The notes beneath the pieces are model-generated. The model was given only the letters and a program-made list of their open reading frames with translations. It was not told the DNA's origin and ran no database searches. Below are positions 16,185 through 23,959 of a stretch of 64,000 nt of DNA, piece by piece. This stretch comes from a virus, in IMG/VR virus record IMGVR_UViG_3300017917_000784, positions 1-64,000 of that record. One strand, written 5' to 3'. Every line of letters begins with the position of its first letter. Positions within the stretch are counted from its first letter, which is position 1. Both the position numbers and the translations under genes were made by a program.

Positions 16185-16619
16185 ATGGACGATTTACGTA
16201 AAGCACTTAAAATAGCATTTGCATCAGAATTTGCTTATTATTTAAAAGCACATTATTTCCACTGGAATGTGGAAGGTGCAGACTTTAAACAATATCACGA
16301 TTTGTTCGGCGATATCTATGAAGAAGTCTATGGTAGCATCGACGAATTTGCAGAAAATATTCGTAAGACCGGTGGCTACACTCCAGGCAGTTTTGAACGT
16401 TTTAGTATGTTGAGTCGCATAGAAGACGAAACAGCAGTTCCTACTGCATTAGATATGGTTAAAGAATTATTAGACGATTCTGAAAAGATGGCTAATATTT
16501 TTAAATTAGTTTTTGACCTAGCAGAAAAATATGGCGAACATGGCCTTGCAGATTTTCTAGCAGGACGTCAGGATGCACATCGCAAACACGCATGGATGTT
16601 GAGGGCCACATTAAAATGA
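16185..16619 (+). CDS. dps: Dps-type mini-ferritin
   Basis: 144 residues. The Dps signature HWNVEGADFKQYHDLF is present. The inter-subunit ferroxidase ligands His26, His38, Asp53 and Glu57 have exactly the spacing of E. coli Dps (His51, His63, Asp78, Glu82). Family members oxidise Fe(II) with peroxide, store iron in a 12-mer shell and protect DNA. The Lys-rich N-terminal tail used by E. coli Dps to bind DNA is absent. It lies at the end of the late block, so packaging or protection of newly made phage DNA can be imagined but is not shown. Confidence 0.85.
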   Translation: MDDLRKALKIAFASEFAYYLKAHYFHWNVEGADFKQYHDLFGDIYEEVYGSIDEFAENIRKTGGYTPGSFERFSMLSRIEDETAVPTALDMVKELLDDSEKMANIFKLVFDLAEKYGEHGLADFLAGRQDAHRKHAWMLRATLK

Positions 16620-17021: not shown

Positions 17022-18296
17022 ATGGACCAACGCACACAGAGACAGCAGGCAATGCAACAAGACTGGGCTATAAACCCACGATGGAATGGAATAAAAAGAC
17101 CATACACAGCAGAGGAAGTCGTTCGCTTACAAGGCTCCAGGACTTATCCTAATCAGTTTGCTGTTGAACAAGCCAACAAACTATGGACGCTGTTAACTAC
17201 AGAACCATATATCAACACATTAGGTGCTTTGACAGGTATGCAGGCACTACAACAAGTCAAAGCAGGATTAAAAGCAATATATCTATCAGGATGGCAAGTA
17301 GCCGCAGATGCTAATCTAGCAGGCGACATGTATCCTGATCAAAGTCTGTATCCAGCAGACTCAGTGCCAGCAGTGGTAAAGAAAATTAACAATGCATTTG
17401 CTCGTGCTGATCAGGTAGCATGGAGTGAAGGCAGTGAAAGAGATTTCTTTGCACCTATCGTAGCAGACGCTGAAGCAGGATTCGGTGGTGTATTAAATGC
17501 CTACGAACTTATGAAAGATATGATTGAAGCAGGCGCTGCCGGTGTTCACTTTGAAGATCAATTAGCATCTGCTAAAAAATGCGGACACATGGGTGGTAAA
17601 GTTCTTGTACCAACTAGAGAAGCAATCAATAAACTTGTGGCTGCTCGTCTTGCTAGTGATGTTATGGGCGTACCTACTTTAGTCATTGCCCGCACTGACG
17701 CCGAAGCCGGTAACCTTATTACTAGTGATATTGACGATAATGATAAGCCGTTTCTCACTGGCGAACGTACTGTTGAAGGTTTCTATTACACTAGAAATGG
17801 CATTGAACAGGCAATCTCACGAGCAGTTGCTTACGCACCATATGCTGATCTTGTATGGTGTGAAACAGGAAAACCAGACCTTGACTTTGCAAAGCAATTT
17901 GCCGAAGCAGTACACAAACATCATCCAGGTAAGATGTTGGCCTACAACTGTTCGCCGAGTTTCAATTGGAAGAAGAATCTAGACGATGCCACAATCGCCA
18001 AGTTCCAACGTGAGCTTGGTGCGATGGGTTACAAGTTCCAATTCATCACCTTAGCAGGTTTCCATAACTTAAACAATGGTATGTTTGAACTTGCTTACGG
18101 TTATGCTCGTAACGGTATGACTGCTTTTGTAGAGTTACAAGAACGAGAGTTTGCTAACGCTGCCATAGGCTTCGAAGCAGTGAAACATCAGCGTGAAGTA
18201 GGAACAGGATATTTTGATCTGATCACTACTACTGTTGAAAAAGATGCAAGTACACAGGCACTAAAAGGTAGTACAGAAGAGGAACAGTTTCATTAA
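17022..18296 (+). CDS. aceA: Isocitrate lyase
   Basis: 424 residues, full length (E. coli 434). It splits isocitrate into succinate and glyoxylate, the first step of the glyoxylate shunt. The signature KKCGHMGGK is intact with catalytic Cys187; [10 protein letters not shown] and YNCSPSFNW (active-site strands), [10 protein letters not shown] and the GSTEEEQF C-terminal segment are all present, and similarity to proteobacterial AceA is continuous. Nothing suggests decay. It sits behind a T4-type late promoter, so expression late in infection is inferred. No malate synthase or isocitrate dehydrogenase kinase is in the window. Confidence 0.96.
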
Positions 18297-18486: not shown

Positions 18487-19134
18487 ATGTTAGAAACTAT
18501 ATGTGATATTTTAGTAGAAGCATACAAGCGTAACTGGATTACCAGTCGTGACGGCAACGTTTCTATCCGTCATCACGATAGAGATTATTTTTATGTAACA
18601 CCTAGCGGTGTGCGTAAGCAGACATTACAGCCTGATCAATTTAAAAAAATAAAAATTAATAAAGGATTTTTTGATCAACCACCGAGACTACATTATAGTT
18701 GGGAAGAAATGCCTTATAGTGATATTTCCATTGGATTAAAACCTACTGGAGAAATGCCATTGCATTTTGGTCTACAAAAAGAAATAGGCGATGATGAAGT
18801 ACGTGTTGTTACACACATTCATCCTACTTATATTGTAGCAGCCATGCATGCTGGCATAGAATTAAATGAGTTAGTAAAAGATTTTCCAGAATTAAGTCGT
18901 TACACTCGTGTAGCACCAAACGTAGGCGATGTACCTCCTATCAGTCAAGAACTAGGAGATCAATGTCACGAAAAACTAGGACTAGATCATAAAACTGGTA
19001 AATTGCAGTACGACATAGTCGGAATTAAAGGTCACGGGGTCGTGGCCATCGATACTAGCCCTTGGCGCAGTTTCGAACATATTGAGAGACTAGAACATAT
19101 TTGTAAAATAGTTCTGTCCTCAGGGAACTATTAA
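18487..19134 (+). CDS. Class II aldolase/adducin-family protein
   Basis: 215 residues. It has DGNVSIRHHD near the N-terminus, SGVRKQTL (phosphate-binding region), HIHPTY (about 114-119, metal-binding His pair) and GHGVVAID with a following HIERLEHI (third metal His region). Enzymes of this family cleave sugar phosphates such as fuculose- or rhamnulose-phosphate or epimerise ribulose-phosphate. The substrate cannot be assigned here. It overlaps the desaturase start by one base, so the two are translated together. Confidence 0.85.
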   Translation: MLETICDILVEAYKRNWITSRDGNVSIRHHDRDYFYVTPSGVRKQTLQPDQFKKIKINKGFFDQPPRLHYSWEEMPYSDISIGLKPTGEMPLHFGLQKEIGDDEVRVVTHIHPTYIVAAMHAGIELNELVKDFPELSRYTRVAPNVGDVPPISQELGDQCHEKLGLDHKTGKLQYDIVGIKGHGVVAIDTSPWRSFEHIERLEHICKIVLSSGNY

Positions 19135-19896: not shown

Positions 19897-20157
19897 ATGG
19901 GCAGTCGTACCTACGGACCAGAAGAAAAAGCAAAACTAGAACGCCTTGTTAACGAGGGCGTTCAAATCAAATACGAAATTGAAAGCCTCTCAGAAGGATT
20001 AAAAGAAACTGTTAAAGCAGTTGCCGAAGAATTAGATATCAAACCAGCACTAATTAATAAAGCAATCTCAATCGCACATAAAGGTAACTGGAACGATGTG
20101 TTCAGCGACTTCGACGATTTGGAAACATTGATTGTTACTGTTGGTAAAGACAAGTGA
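19897..20157 (+). CDS. dsbA: DsbA-like dsDNA-binding late-transcription accessory protein
   Basis: 86 residues, helical. The arrangement of a charged helix, then EELDIKPALINKAISIAHK, then GNWNDVFSDFDDLE parallels T4 DsbA (89 residues; ELGVDGKMFNRLLALYHK followed by DNRDVF), a double-stranded DNA-binding protein that enhances late transcription. The similarity is short but colinear. It stands directly upstream of the polymerase, as in many T4-like cyanophages. Unrelated to thiol oxidoreductase DsbA. Confidence 0.72.
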   Translation: MGSRTYGPEEKAKLERLVNEGVQIKYEIESLSEGLKETVKAVAEELDIKPALINKAISIAHKGNWNDVFSDFDDLETLIVTVGKDK

Positions 20158-20447
20158 TTATAAATGTTGCCTCAGGCATCGTACAATGGATCCGAAAAGA
20201 TTATGCAAGTAATCGAGTACGTTTTTGTTTTGAGGTCCTTGCTTGGGCTATGTCTATTGGTTGTGCTATCACTATGGCACTCACCGTTCCAACACCACCT
20301 TTCATGGTTCTTTACCCTGTTTGGATATCAGGCTGTATTATATACGCTTGGTGTTGTTATAACCGTGGTTCCTTTGGCCTGTTGGCTAATTATGTTCTTA
20401 TGGTCACGATCGACAGCATAGCCCTGGCAAGATTGATAATTACTTAA
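20154..20447 (+). CDS. Small three-TM membrane protein
   Basis: 97 residues from a GTG start that overlaps the previous stop (GTGA). Three hydrophobic helices, about 24-44, 48-66 and 74-94, leave an N-terminal cytosolic tail. It is similar in layout to the 87-residue membrane protein after the sliding clamp (23961-24224), so the polymerase is flanked by two such genes. Function unknown. Confidence 0.7.
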   Translation: MIINVASGIVQWIRKDYASNRVRFCFEVLAWAMSIGCAITMALTVPTPPFMVLYPVWISGCIIYAWCCYNRGSFGLLANYVLMVTIDSIALARLIIT

Positions 20448-20458
20448 TATAGAGAAAG

Positions 20459-20508
20459 GTATGCGGGCCATAAACCGCATGTTTGGTATTTGTGAGCCGT
20501 AAATCACA
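20459..20508 (+). promoter_or_regulatory. Tandem hairpins, candidate translational operator of DNA polymerase
   Basis: Hairpin 1 is ATGCGG (20461-20466), loop GCCATAAA, CCGCAT (20475-20480). Hairpin 2 is TGTGA (20491-20495), loop GCCGTAAA, TCACA (20504-20508). The loops are both 8 bases and differ at one position. Hairpin 2 ends 2-3 bases before the AAGGAG of the polymerase gene. T4 polymerase gp43 represses its own translation by binding a hairpin with a 5-bp stem and 8-base loop next to its ribosome site, so a similar autoregulatory operator, here doubled, is likely. Confidence 0.75.
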
Positions 20509-20519
20509 TAAGGAGAAAA

Positions 20520-23192
20520 ATGAGTTACGTTGACGCTCTGTTTGACAGAGAGAATGATATTATTAAAGTCGTCGAAAGAAACGACAAAGGTGAGCGTGTA
20601 TATAAAGAGTTTCCTGTACGCTACACTTTCTACTACCCAGACGCTCGCGGTAAGTTTCAAAGCATTTATGGCGATCCTCTTACAAGAGTAGTATGTAAAA
20701 ACTCTAAAGACTTCCGTAAAGAACTAGCCATTAACAGTGGCAAGGAACTATACGAAAGCGACATTAATCCAATTTTCGTTACACTTAGCGAAAACTATCT
20801 TAATCAAGATGCACCAACACTAAACGTTTGTTTCTTCGACATCGAAGTAGACTTTGACCCAGAGCGTGGTTATGCAGATCCCAGTGATCCGTTTATGCCT
20901 ATCACTGCTATTACTGTTTACTTGAAATGGTTAAATCAGTTAATTACACTGGCATTACCACCTAAAACACTTACATTAGAGCAGGCTAAAGAACTCTGTA
21001 AAGATATTCCTAACACATATCTTTACGACAACGAAGGCGACATGCTGGAAACATTCCTAGAGTTAATTCAAGATGCAGATGTGTTAAGTGGATGGAACAG
21101 CGAGGGCTATGATATTCCTTATACTGTTAACCGTGTGACCCGTGTATTAAGCAAAGAAGACACACGTAGATTCTGCCTATGGGATCAATTTCCTAAAAAG
21201 CGCGAATATGAAAAATATGGGCGTATGCAAGAAACATACGATTTAGTTGGTCGAGTACATCTCGACTCGTTGGAATTGTATCGTAAATATACCTATGAAG
21301 AACGTCATACCTATCGATTAGACGCTATTGGAGAGATGGAAATTGGCGAAAACAAAACAGTATATGAAGGTACTCTAGATCAACTTTACAACAAAGACTT
21401 TCATACTTTTATTGAATATAATAGACAAGACGTGGCCTTGTTAAACAAACTTGATGATAAATTAAAGTTCTTAGATCTCGCCAACAAACTAGCACATGAA
21501 TGTACAGTACTGTTACAGACTACTATGGGCGCCGTAGCCGTTACCGAACAGGCTATTATCAACGAAGCGCATCGTAGAGGTTTCCAAGTTCCTAACCGTC
21601 CCAAGCGTGAAGACGGAGAGGACACTGCGGCTGCCGGTGCTTATGTTGCATACCCTAAAGAAGGTTTGCAAGATTGGATTGGTTCTCTAGATATTAACTC
21701 GTTGTACCCTAGTGCGATTCGTGCATTAAACATGGGTCCAGAAACTATTGTTGGACAACTACGTCCTGTATATACGCAGGCACATATACACGAACAAACT
21801 ACTCTTAAGAAAAAATCATTTGCGGCTGCTTGGGAAGGAATGTTTGGAACTGTGGAATACGAAGCAGTTATGGAAAAACGTAGAGATACTGAAATTACCA
21901 TAGACTGGGAAGATGGCAATAGTACTGTACACAGTGCCGCAGAAGTATATCAATTGATCTTTGATAGTCATCAACCTTGGATGCTGTCTGCAAACGGTAC
22001 TATCTTCACTTACGAAAAAGAAGGTATCATTCCAGGATTGTTAAAACGTTGGTATGCTGAACGTAAAGAAATGCAGGCTAAATTAAAGGAATGTATAGCG
22101 GCGGGGAACAAAATTGAAGAAGAATATTGGGACAAACGTCAGTTGGTTAAGAAGATTAATCTTAACAGTCTTTACGGTGCTATTCTTAATCCTGGTTGTC
22201 GTTTTTTCGATAAACGTATTGGTCAAAGTACAACCCTTACTGGACGTCAGATTGCCAAGCATATGGCTAGTAAGGTAAATGAAATTATTACCGGAGAATA
22301 CAATCACGTAGGTCGTGCTGTTATATACGGCGACACAGACTCCTGTTATTTCAGTGCTTATTCTACATTAAAGAAAGACATTGAAGCAGGTGTTATTCCG
22401 TGGACTAAAGAAAATGTTATTGCACTTTATGATCAAATAGGAGAAGAAGTTAATGGCACGTTTGTTAAATTCATGGAACAACAGTTCCACTGTCCGCCCA
22501 GCAGAGGAGAAGTCATCAAAGCAGGTCGCGAGATTGTTGCTTCCAAAGGACTATTCATCACAAAGAAAAGATACGCAGTGCTCTACTTCGATAAAGAAGG
22601 AAAACGTACCGATATTGATGGTAAGCCAGGCAAAATCAAAGCCATGGGACTCGACCTCAAACGAAGCGACACTCCTGCATTCATCCAAGACTTCTTAAGC
22701 GATGTTCTTGAACGTGTACTAACGGGTGCCACAGAAACTGAAGTATTAGATTTTATCACGGCATTCCGCACAGAATTTAAGAGCAGACCAGGTTGGGAGA
22801 AAGGCAGTCCGAAACGTGCTAACAACATTACCGAGTATGCGGCTAAAGAAGCCAAGGCCGGTAAAGCAAATATGCCAGGTCACGTTCGTGCAAGTATCAA
22901 CTGGAATACATTGCGTAGAATGAACGGAGACAAATATTCTATGCAAATCGTAGACGGAGCCAAAGTTATTGTATGTAAACTTAGAGATAATCCTTTGGGA
23001 TTTACATCTGTAGCATATCCCGTAGACGAACTAAGATTGCCAAAATGGTTTATGGAACTACCTTTTGACGATGCTGAAATGGAAAGTACCATTATAGACA
23101 ATAAGTTAGAGAACCTAATTGGTGTACTTCATTGGGACATTAAATCAACCGAAGAGAAAAATACATTTAATAAATTGTTTGACTTTTCCTAA
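20520..23192 (+). CDS. 43: T4-type family B DNA polymerase (gp43-like)
   Basis: 890 residues, close to T4 gp43 (898). The exonuclease motif FFDIEVDFD (about 105) and the later exo motif with NRQDVALL are present. Polymerase motif A is DINSLYPSAI (about 390), motif B has KKINLNSLYGAILNP, and motif C is YGDTDS (about 603). It is the replicative polymerase, acting with the clamp encoded just downstream. It is full length with no intein or intron interruption. The ATG at 20520 follows a strong AAGGAG and the tandem hairpins. Confidence 0.97.
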   Translation: MSYVDALFDRENDIIKVVERNDKGERVYKEFPVRYTFYYPDARGKFQSIYGDPLTRVVCKNSKDFRKELAINSGKELYESDINPIFVTLSENYLNQDAPTLNVCFFDIEVDFDPERGYADPSDPFMPITAITVYLKWLNQLITLALPPKTLTLEQAKELCKDIPNTYLYDNEGDMLETFLELIQDADVLSGWNSEGYDIPYTVNRVTRVLSKEDTRRFCLWDQFPKKREYEKYGRMQETYDLVGRVHLDSLELYRKYTYEERHTYRLDAIGEMEIGENKTVYEGTLDQLYNKDFHTFIEYNRQDVALLNKLDDKLKFLDLANKLAHECTVLLQTTMGAVAVTEQAIINEAHRRGFQVPNRPKREDGEDTAAAGAYVAYPKEGLQDWIGSLDINSLYPSAIRALNMGPETIVGQLRPVYTQAHIHEQTTLKKKSFAAAWEGMFGTVEYEAVMEKRRDTEITIDWEDGNSTVHSAAEVYQLIFDSHQPWMLSANGTIFTYEKEGIIPGLLKRWYAERKEMQAKLKECIAAGNKIEEEYWDKRQLVKKINLNSLYGAILNPGCRFFDKRIGQSTTLTGRQIAKHMASKVNEIITGEYNHVGRAVIYGDTDSCYFSAYSTLKKDIEAGVIPWTKENVIALYDQIGEEVNGTFVKFMEQQFHCPPSRGEVIKAGREIVASKGLFITKKRYAVLYFDKEGKRTDIDGKPGKIKAMGLDLKRSDTPAFIQDFLSDVLERVLTGATETEVLDFITAFRTEFKSRPGWEKGSPKRANNITEYAAKEAKAGKANMPGHVRASINWNTLRRMNGDKYSMQIVDGAKVIVCKLRDNPLGFTSVAYPVDELRLPKWFMELPFDDAEMESTIIDNKLENLIGVLHWDIKSTEEKNTFNKLFDFS

Positions 23193-23227: not shown

Positions 23228-23959
23228 ATGAAAGATATTTTACAAGACATCGTAGCACACACTCATAGCCTAGGCTTTTTGCCTTTGGTTAAAATTACAG
23301 GTGCTGACGATTCAACAACAATCGAAAGTATGGCTGAAGATCGTTCAGTTATTGTAACTGCTAATGCTCATAAGCCTGTGGAAGAATTTGTTGGCACATT
23401 TGGTATGCCAAACTTAGATAAACTTAATTTGCATTTAAAGAATCCCGAGTACAAAGAAAATGCTAAGATTGATGTAGTCAAAGCAGAACGTAACGGTGCA
23501 GTTGTTCCAACAGGACTACACTTTGAAAACCAAGCAGGGGACTTTCAGAATGACTATCGTTTTATGAACGCAGACATTATTAATGAAAAGTTAAAGAGTG
23601 TTAAGTTCAAAGGCGCTAGTTGGGAAGTTGAATTCAAACCCAGTGTTGCTAGTATTCAGCGTCTTAAATTACAAGCCGAAGCACACAGCGAAGAAAGTGT
23701 TTTCCAAGTTCGCACAGAAGATGGTAATCTAGTAATTTTCTTTGGTGATGCAGCCAGCCACGCAGGTAGTTTTGTATTCCAGCACGATGTTGGCGGCAAA
23801 CTAAAACACACTTGGAGTTGGCCAGTTAATCAAGTACGTAGTATCCTTAACTTAGACGGTGATGTTACTATGAAGATTGCCGATGCAGGTGCTATGCAGA
23901 TTACTGTTGACAGTGGTATTGCAGAGTATAACTATATTCTGCCAGCACAAAGCAAATAA
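23228..23959 (+). CDS. 45: Sliding clamp (gp45-like)
   Basis: 243 residues (T4 gp45 is 228). The N-terminal part (DILQDIVAHTHSLGFLPLVKI) and the beta-rich two-domain layout match T4-like clamp proteins of marine phages. The trimeric ring tethers the polymerase and, in T4, activates late promoters through gp33/gp55. Position directly behind gp43 supports the call. Sequence identity of clamps is low, so the call rests on position plus pattern. Confidence 0.82.
   Translation: MKDILQDIVAHTHSLGFLPLVKITGADDSTTIESMAEDRSVIVTANAHKPVEEFVGTFGMPNLDKLNLHLKNPEYKENAKIDVVKAERNGAVVPTGLHFENQAGDFQNDYRFMNADIINEKLKSVKFKGASWEVEFKPSVASIQRLKLQAEAHSEESVFQVRTEDGNLVIFFGDAASHAGSFVFQHDVGGKLKHTWSWPVNQVRSILNLDGDVTMKIADAGAMQITVDSGIAEYNYILPAQSK

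Follow-up and report, generated by a model that had tools for sequence, protein, structure and literature searches.

The leader of the gp43-type DNA polymerase gene in this phage record carries two tandem copies of a compact RNA element, each of which is probably a small H-type pseudoknot and not a plain hairpin, its three-dimensional form being read from base pairing. We interpret the leader as a translational operator of two tandem pseudoknots with the polymerase, by analogy, as the ligand, and give this reading a probability of about 0.57. The comparison of relatives establishes both stems, the S1 pairing, the restriction to the polymerase gene and the position on or beside the Shine-Dalgarno sequence. 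The element occurs in the leaders of some 200 distinct phage polymerase genes.

The window (the whole stretch of 64,000 nt that was analyzed, positions 1 to 64,000 of the record) had been described in a sequence-only reading as having two 8-base-loop stems upstream of the AAGGAG at the polymerase gene. Sequence, together with covariation of both stems in relatives, confirmed them (Table 1): the copy 1 hairpin is GCGG-GCCATAAA-CCGC (20463-20478) and the copy 2 hairpin is TGTGA-GCCGTAAA-TCACA (20491-20508). What that reading overlooked is a conserved GGY, 2-4 nt 5' of each stem, that is complementary to the GCC of the loop. A unit spans roughly 24 nt in the order S1-L1-S2-S1'-L3-S2', with an L1 of 2-4 nt, no L2, an S2 of 4-6 bp closed by the loop GCCNNAAN, and an A-rich L3 of 5 nt whose invariant AA are the only unpaired invariant bases. 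In all tandem relatives the linker between units was 5-7 nt, counting from 4 bp of the unit A 3' arm. The two sites in the leader are the only noncoding ones in the 85,169-base record that combine stem, loop and upstream GGY (shuffles gave 0.56 per genome). The folding energy of the 91-nt leader as a single sequence was ordinary (z -0.65) and uninformative by itself. The bare loop motif GCCRTAAA was rejected as the signal; it occurred 10 times in the window versus 4.6 expected, and the other copies lacked the stem and the GGY.

Table 1. Features of the polymerase leader and gene in the window.
Feature	Position	Strand	Details and basis
Whole leader	20448..20519	+	72 nt, from the upstream ORF (20154-20447) to the polymerase start
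Pseudoknot unit A (copy 1), probable	20458..20478	+	Sequence, parsing of relatives, covariation
Unit A, S1 5' (GGU)	20458-20460
Unit A, L1 (AU)	20461-20462
Unit A, S2 5' (GCGG)	20463-20466
Unit A, loop GCC (S1 3')	20467-20469
Unit A, L3 (AUAAA)	20470-20474
Unit A, S2 3' (CCGC)	20475-20478
Linker, unit A to unit B	20479..20484	+
Pseudoknot unit B (copy 2), probable	20485..20508	+	Sequence, IMG/VR pattern matches
Unit B, S1 5' (GGU)	20485-20487
Unit B, L1 (AUU)	20488-20490
Unit B, S2 5' (UGUGA)	20491-20495
Unit B, loop GCC (S1 3')	20496-20498
Unit B, L3 (GUAAA)	20499-20503
Unit B, S2 3' (UCACA)	20504-20508
Shine-Dalgarno AAGGAG	20510..20515	+	Sequence; position in relatives; 1 nt (U) past the unit B 3' arm
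gp43-type family B DNA polymerase	20520..23192	+	890 aa, ATG at 20520; phrog_262, Pfam, RB69 gp43 match

The polymerase ORF matched phrog_262 with an E-value of 5.7e-201, as well as Pfam DNA_pol_B and DNA_pol_B_exo1, and its best PDB match and closest solved relative was RB69 gp43 (1clq, E 1.6e-61). Among cultured phages the best match was Sinorhizobium phage Phosso, at only 51%, followed by Agrobacterium phage Atu_ph07 (48%) and the Escherichia 121Q group (about 45%). The polymerase is the presumed regulated gene and, by analogy, the likely ligand.

Covariation of the stems in related phages, proposed as a check in the sequence-only reading, was very strong both in 50 leaders and on a tree of 260 polymerases. 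The named structure paired in 98.2% of cells in the 50 leaders; shuffles reached 86.9% and slid controls 21-46%. Cells changed on both sides numbered 102, versus 33 in shuffles. On the polymerase tree, proximal pairs 2 and 3 changed at least 51 and at least 49 times, respectively, and each was paired in 165 of 166 rows. The distal unit was looser than the proximal one, with a one-base bulge in some copies. These compensatory changes strongly support two copies of a conserved RNA structure at the ribosome site of the polymerase gene. A protein site in the form of a double-stranded DNA dyad was rejected because the arms vary freely with complementarity kept, while conservation sits in the loop and the GGY. 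The counts of G-U versus A-C mismatches (10 versus 7) were not decisive between RNA and double-stranded DNA, one reason being that the bulge was ignored when bulged copies were parsed.

The S1 pairing was followed through its own compensatory changes. In a soft scan whose sole requirements were a stem and a loop with AA, 266 of 267 GCC-loop stems had GGY at a distance of 9-12 nt on the upstream side, a count biased in the share that comes from pattern-selected loci, which were chosen for proximal GGT and GCC. The distal copies of those loci and the protein-similarity sets are free of this selection. At the matching place, all 7 genuine GCT loops in the scan had AGT. In the tree set the GCT loop had its AGT partner in 8 of 8 cases, representing at least two proximal and at least three distal independent changes. 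Directed scans found AGT with GCT before the polymerases of L249 and L291, but no polymerase was preceded by a proximal unit with either single change (AGT/GCC or GGT/GCT). Each unit shows 16 or more alternations between UG and CG at the third S1 position and not one change to a non-pair; L084 has ACC opposite GGT, which gives U-A at S1. In three leaders (L042, L123 and L177) copy A has AGT/GCT while copy B remains GGT/GCC, and since only copy A changed, the pairing lies within each unit. The middle G-C pair of S1 was invariant. In the distal unit of L210, TCC stands opposite GGT and the S1 pairing is broken. The GGY:GCC pairing and its compensated AGT:GCT form indicate that each unit is probably an H-type pseudoknot. 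With just 3 bp, often including a U-G, S1 may depend on protein or magnesium for its formation.

The distribution of the element was examined in two ways. In a set of 80 polymerase relatives gathered by protein similarity, with the leader not considered, the tandem element lay directly upstream of the polymerase in nearly all. One leader (L073) had a single copy of the unit. Two that had been taken as element-free (L026 and L084) were found to carry it about 160-190 nt upstream of the polymerase, ahead of a small ORF. A DNA pattern with GGT, TTTG, GCC, AAA and CA fixed and the other arm positions free was also run over 2.9 million viral contigs (IMG/VR). It gave at least 120 matches. Among those listed, 118 precede a gene related to this polymerase, each with a perfect 5-bp stem, though three of the arm pairs were left free. 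The element was absent from 8 of 8 cultured relatives examined and from many uncultivated lineages related to L291 (70-75% polymerase identity), and its history on the polymerase tree requires at least 14 gains or losses. No polymerase residue tracked the presence or absence of the element significantly in 11 independent pairs, a comparison of low power. Two units, or one unit plus a second type of hairpin, were retained in most leaders. In a sister group (L320-L399 and related leaders), unit A is replaced by another conserved hairpin, located some 30-60 nt ahead of the start codon of the polymerase, of the form TCG-NNN(N)-ACGTTAC/CCGTAAG-NNN(N)-CATG, with a stem that varies complementarily (L326, L341, L407 and L249 are examples). 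Bacterial genome collections were uninformative as to the host. Four contigs with polymerase relatives (L487-L490) had been placed in MAGs of four organisms unrelated to one another (Thermoplasmata, Rickettsiales, Halobacteroidaceae and Bacteroidia), and are probably mis-binned phage contigs.

The element is specific to one gene. A covariance model (R1) matched 20456-20523 with an E-value of 3.1e-20, the sole match in the 85-kb record, and in each of 15 other tandem-bearing records (92-322 kb) it had a single strong match, again at the polymerase. The second-best matches in G012, G016, G017 and G018 were rejected as other genomic targets, being chance matches and not the motif. The gene upstream of the element differs between lineages. 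In most leaders 1-6 nt separate the end of the proximal stem from the GG of the Shine-Dalgarno sequence, and in 49 sister-group leaders this GG lies inside the S2 3' arm of the pseudoknot. A small ORF intervenes between element and polymerase at 6 loci. In five of them (L026, L110, L134, L249 and L291) the stop codon of this ORF and the start codon of the polymerase overlap in an ATGA, so that the element still comes before the first of two coupled ORFs. The small ORFs of L026, L084, L110 and L134 are cysteine-rich and possibly zinc-binding; those of L026, L110 and L134 are 46-63 aa. The single gene target, the position on the Shine-Dalgarno sequence and the coupled ORFs point to control of polymerase translation, and they give good support to a translational operator specific to the polymerase. 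The sequence-only reading had proposed an autoregulatory operator and is partly supported: this evidence favors an operator role at the polymerase gene, and the polymerase would be the binder by analogy with T4 and RB69.

In T4 and RB69, gp43 represses its own translation by binding a short hairpin (8-nt loop) at the ribosome site of the polymerase gene (PMC3014915). The T4 gene 43 operator is AGCCU-AAUAACUC-GGGCU, and its earlier description as a 5-bp stem with an 8-base loop was correct. As in the present phage, whose stems have 5 bp in copy B and 4-6 bp in copy A, the T4/RB69 operator lies just upstream of the Shine-Dalgarno sequence of the homologous polymerase gene, and it has a short stem (5 bp in T4) with an 8-nt loop that includes an A-rich AUAA (PMC3014915). 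The T4/RB69 loop (AAUAACUC) is dissimilar to that of the phage element (GCCNNAAN). UAAC is found in the T4 and RB69 operator loops and UAAA in that of RB49. The loops of the window have UAAA, but its U varies in relatives (GCCGGAAA, GCCGAAAA), and only the AA is invariant. The T4/RB69 operator is a single hairpin with no GGY partner, whereas the phage element has two units, each with GGY:GCC pairing. The 2010 review reports no evidence for a pseudoknot at the gene 43 operator and points out that autoregulation is missing in some T4-related polymerases (PMC3014915). The element probably works like the gp43 operator but lacks its single-hairpin, pseudoknot-free character. To call it a diverged T4 hairpin, as had been suggested, is not quite right: its units carry a pseudoknot pairing that T4 and RB69 lack, and the likeness is one of position and shape.

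The gene 32 leader of T4, T2 and RB69 offers a second comparison, since it has an H-type pseudoknot before a replication gene of a T4-superfamily phage, which serves the autogenous repression of gp32 and in T4 is bound by gp32 (PMC3014915). The ABAB order of the strands and the compensatory changes in S1 agree with such a pseudoknot in the present leader. The gene 32 pseudoknot lies 67 nt upstream of the start, has a separate A+U-rich tract for cooperative binding and serves the gene of a single-stranded-DNA-binding protein, whereas here two small pseudoknots fill the leader of a polymerase gene and abut or include the Shine-Dalgarno sequence. Rfam 15 gave no family at the gathering threshold for the window (E up to 10). 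A weak alignment to the cis-regulatory RNA freshwater-2 (RF02980) ran over 20440-20522, around the hairpin and the AAGGAG...ATG; membership was rejected at 21.4 bits versus a gathering score of 49.9 (E 1.1), and 20 relatives compared with Rfam gave no freshwater-2 and only a tRNA. No description of such an element was found in openly licensed papers, and a BLAST of phage records with the 83-nt leader listed only matches of 18-23 nt.

Most likely, the tandem folds let the phage limit the amount of polymerase. A folded, bound proximal unit would block 30S binding, which would reduce polymerase synthesis. By analogy with T4 and RB69, the ligand would be the polymerase itself when not engaged on DNA, and the two units may give tighter or cooperative binding. 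The main rival, which we regard as unlikely, is a cis-only attenuator in which the pseudoknots tune or time ribosome access (also with temperature or magnesium) with no dedicated trans-acting ligand, the conserved AA and the U residues of L1 merely stabilizing the pseudoknot via triples. Pseudoknot stability would explain nearly all of the conserved bases (GGY, GCC, the A-rich L3 and AUU in L1), and in one branch the Shine-Dalgarno sequence is itself a stem arm. However, the retention of a second unit or hairpin in most leaders is superfluous for simple masking, window-type Shine-Dalgarno sequences are predicted to be open (0.94-0.99 unpaired), and the element is confined to a single gene, one for which the homologue in T4 is under autoregulation.

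A different protein as the ligand (the phage ssb, the clamp, a RegA-like repressor or a host protein) is improbable. The binding of a pseudoknot by gp32 in its own leader is a precedent, and RegA represses many replication mRNAs, but a general repressor should have more targets than the polymerase, the only site of the tandem element in 16 records, and RegA sites are unstructured (PMC3014915). It is very unlikely that the units are plain tandem hairpins with a conserved loop, the GGY being an independent protein-contact or spacing signal. S1 is short, and folding with a pseudoknot-free energy model is enough to give the S2 stem of copy A; as a plain hairpin this copy can be extended to 20461-20480, or to 20457-20484 with G-U pairs, and its GGU could alternatively join the extended hairpin (up to 10 bp). 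Against this, the joint change of GGT/GCC to AGT/GCT happened five or more times and no single mutant turned up, the GGY always has its Y opposite G, and L084 has U-A. Small riboswitches use H-type pseudoknots with an A-rich L3 and tandem aptamers exist, but a metabolite riboswitch of tandem mini-pseudoknots (for a nucleotide, for example) is hardly credible with just two invariant unpaired bases (the AA of L3), too few for a known kind of pocket, with no Rfam match and with a single gene per genome.

With the polymerase operator as the preferred reading, we see about an even chance that tandem mini H-type pseudoknots form an undescribed RNA family, the autogenous operator of the replicative DNA polymerase in a large uncultivated clade of the T4 superfamily, including the branch with the Shine-Dalgarno sequence in a stem. 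Autoregulation by T4 gp43 is classic, and how a polymerase reads its own mRNA is a standing question; no gp43-RNA complex had been solved at the time of the 2010 review, in which gene 32 was considered possibly the only viral pseudoknot in translational autoregulation (PMC3014915). If the reading is true, a gp43-type polymerase would have a second way to recognize its own mRNA, and gene 32 would be joined by a further viral pseudoknot of this kind. The element is compact, gene-specific and deeply sampled; its natural variants number in the hundreds and include compensated double mutants for either helix, and some lineages have lost it. Short synthetic RNAs and one protein would be enough to put questions of RNA recognition and cooperativity directly to the test.

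One gene upstream of the leader, at 19897-20157, the window encodes a DsbA-like transcriptional regulator (phrog_639, E 2e-10; Pfam Phage_DsbA under the cut-off), and cultured jumbo relatives have a small ORF in a similar place before the polymerase. Directly after the polymerase lies a clamp-like gene (23228-23959) that matched only a PHROG of unknown function; the similarly placed gene of Phosso is annotated as a sliding clamp. Three unusual metabolic genes of the window lie beside its replication genes: one for an isocitrate lyase family protein (17022-18296; E 9e-103 with Pfam ICL), one for a class II aldolase-like protein (18487-19134) and one for a ferritin/Dps-like protein (16185-16619).
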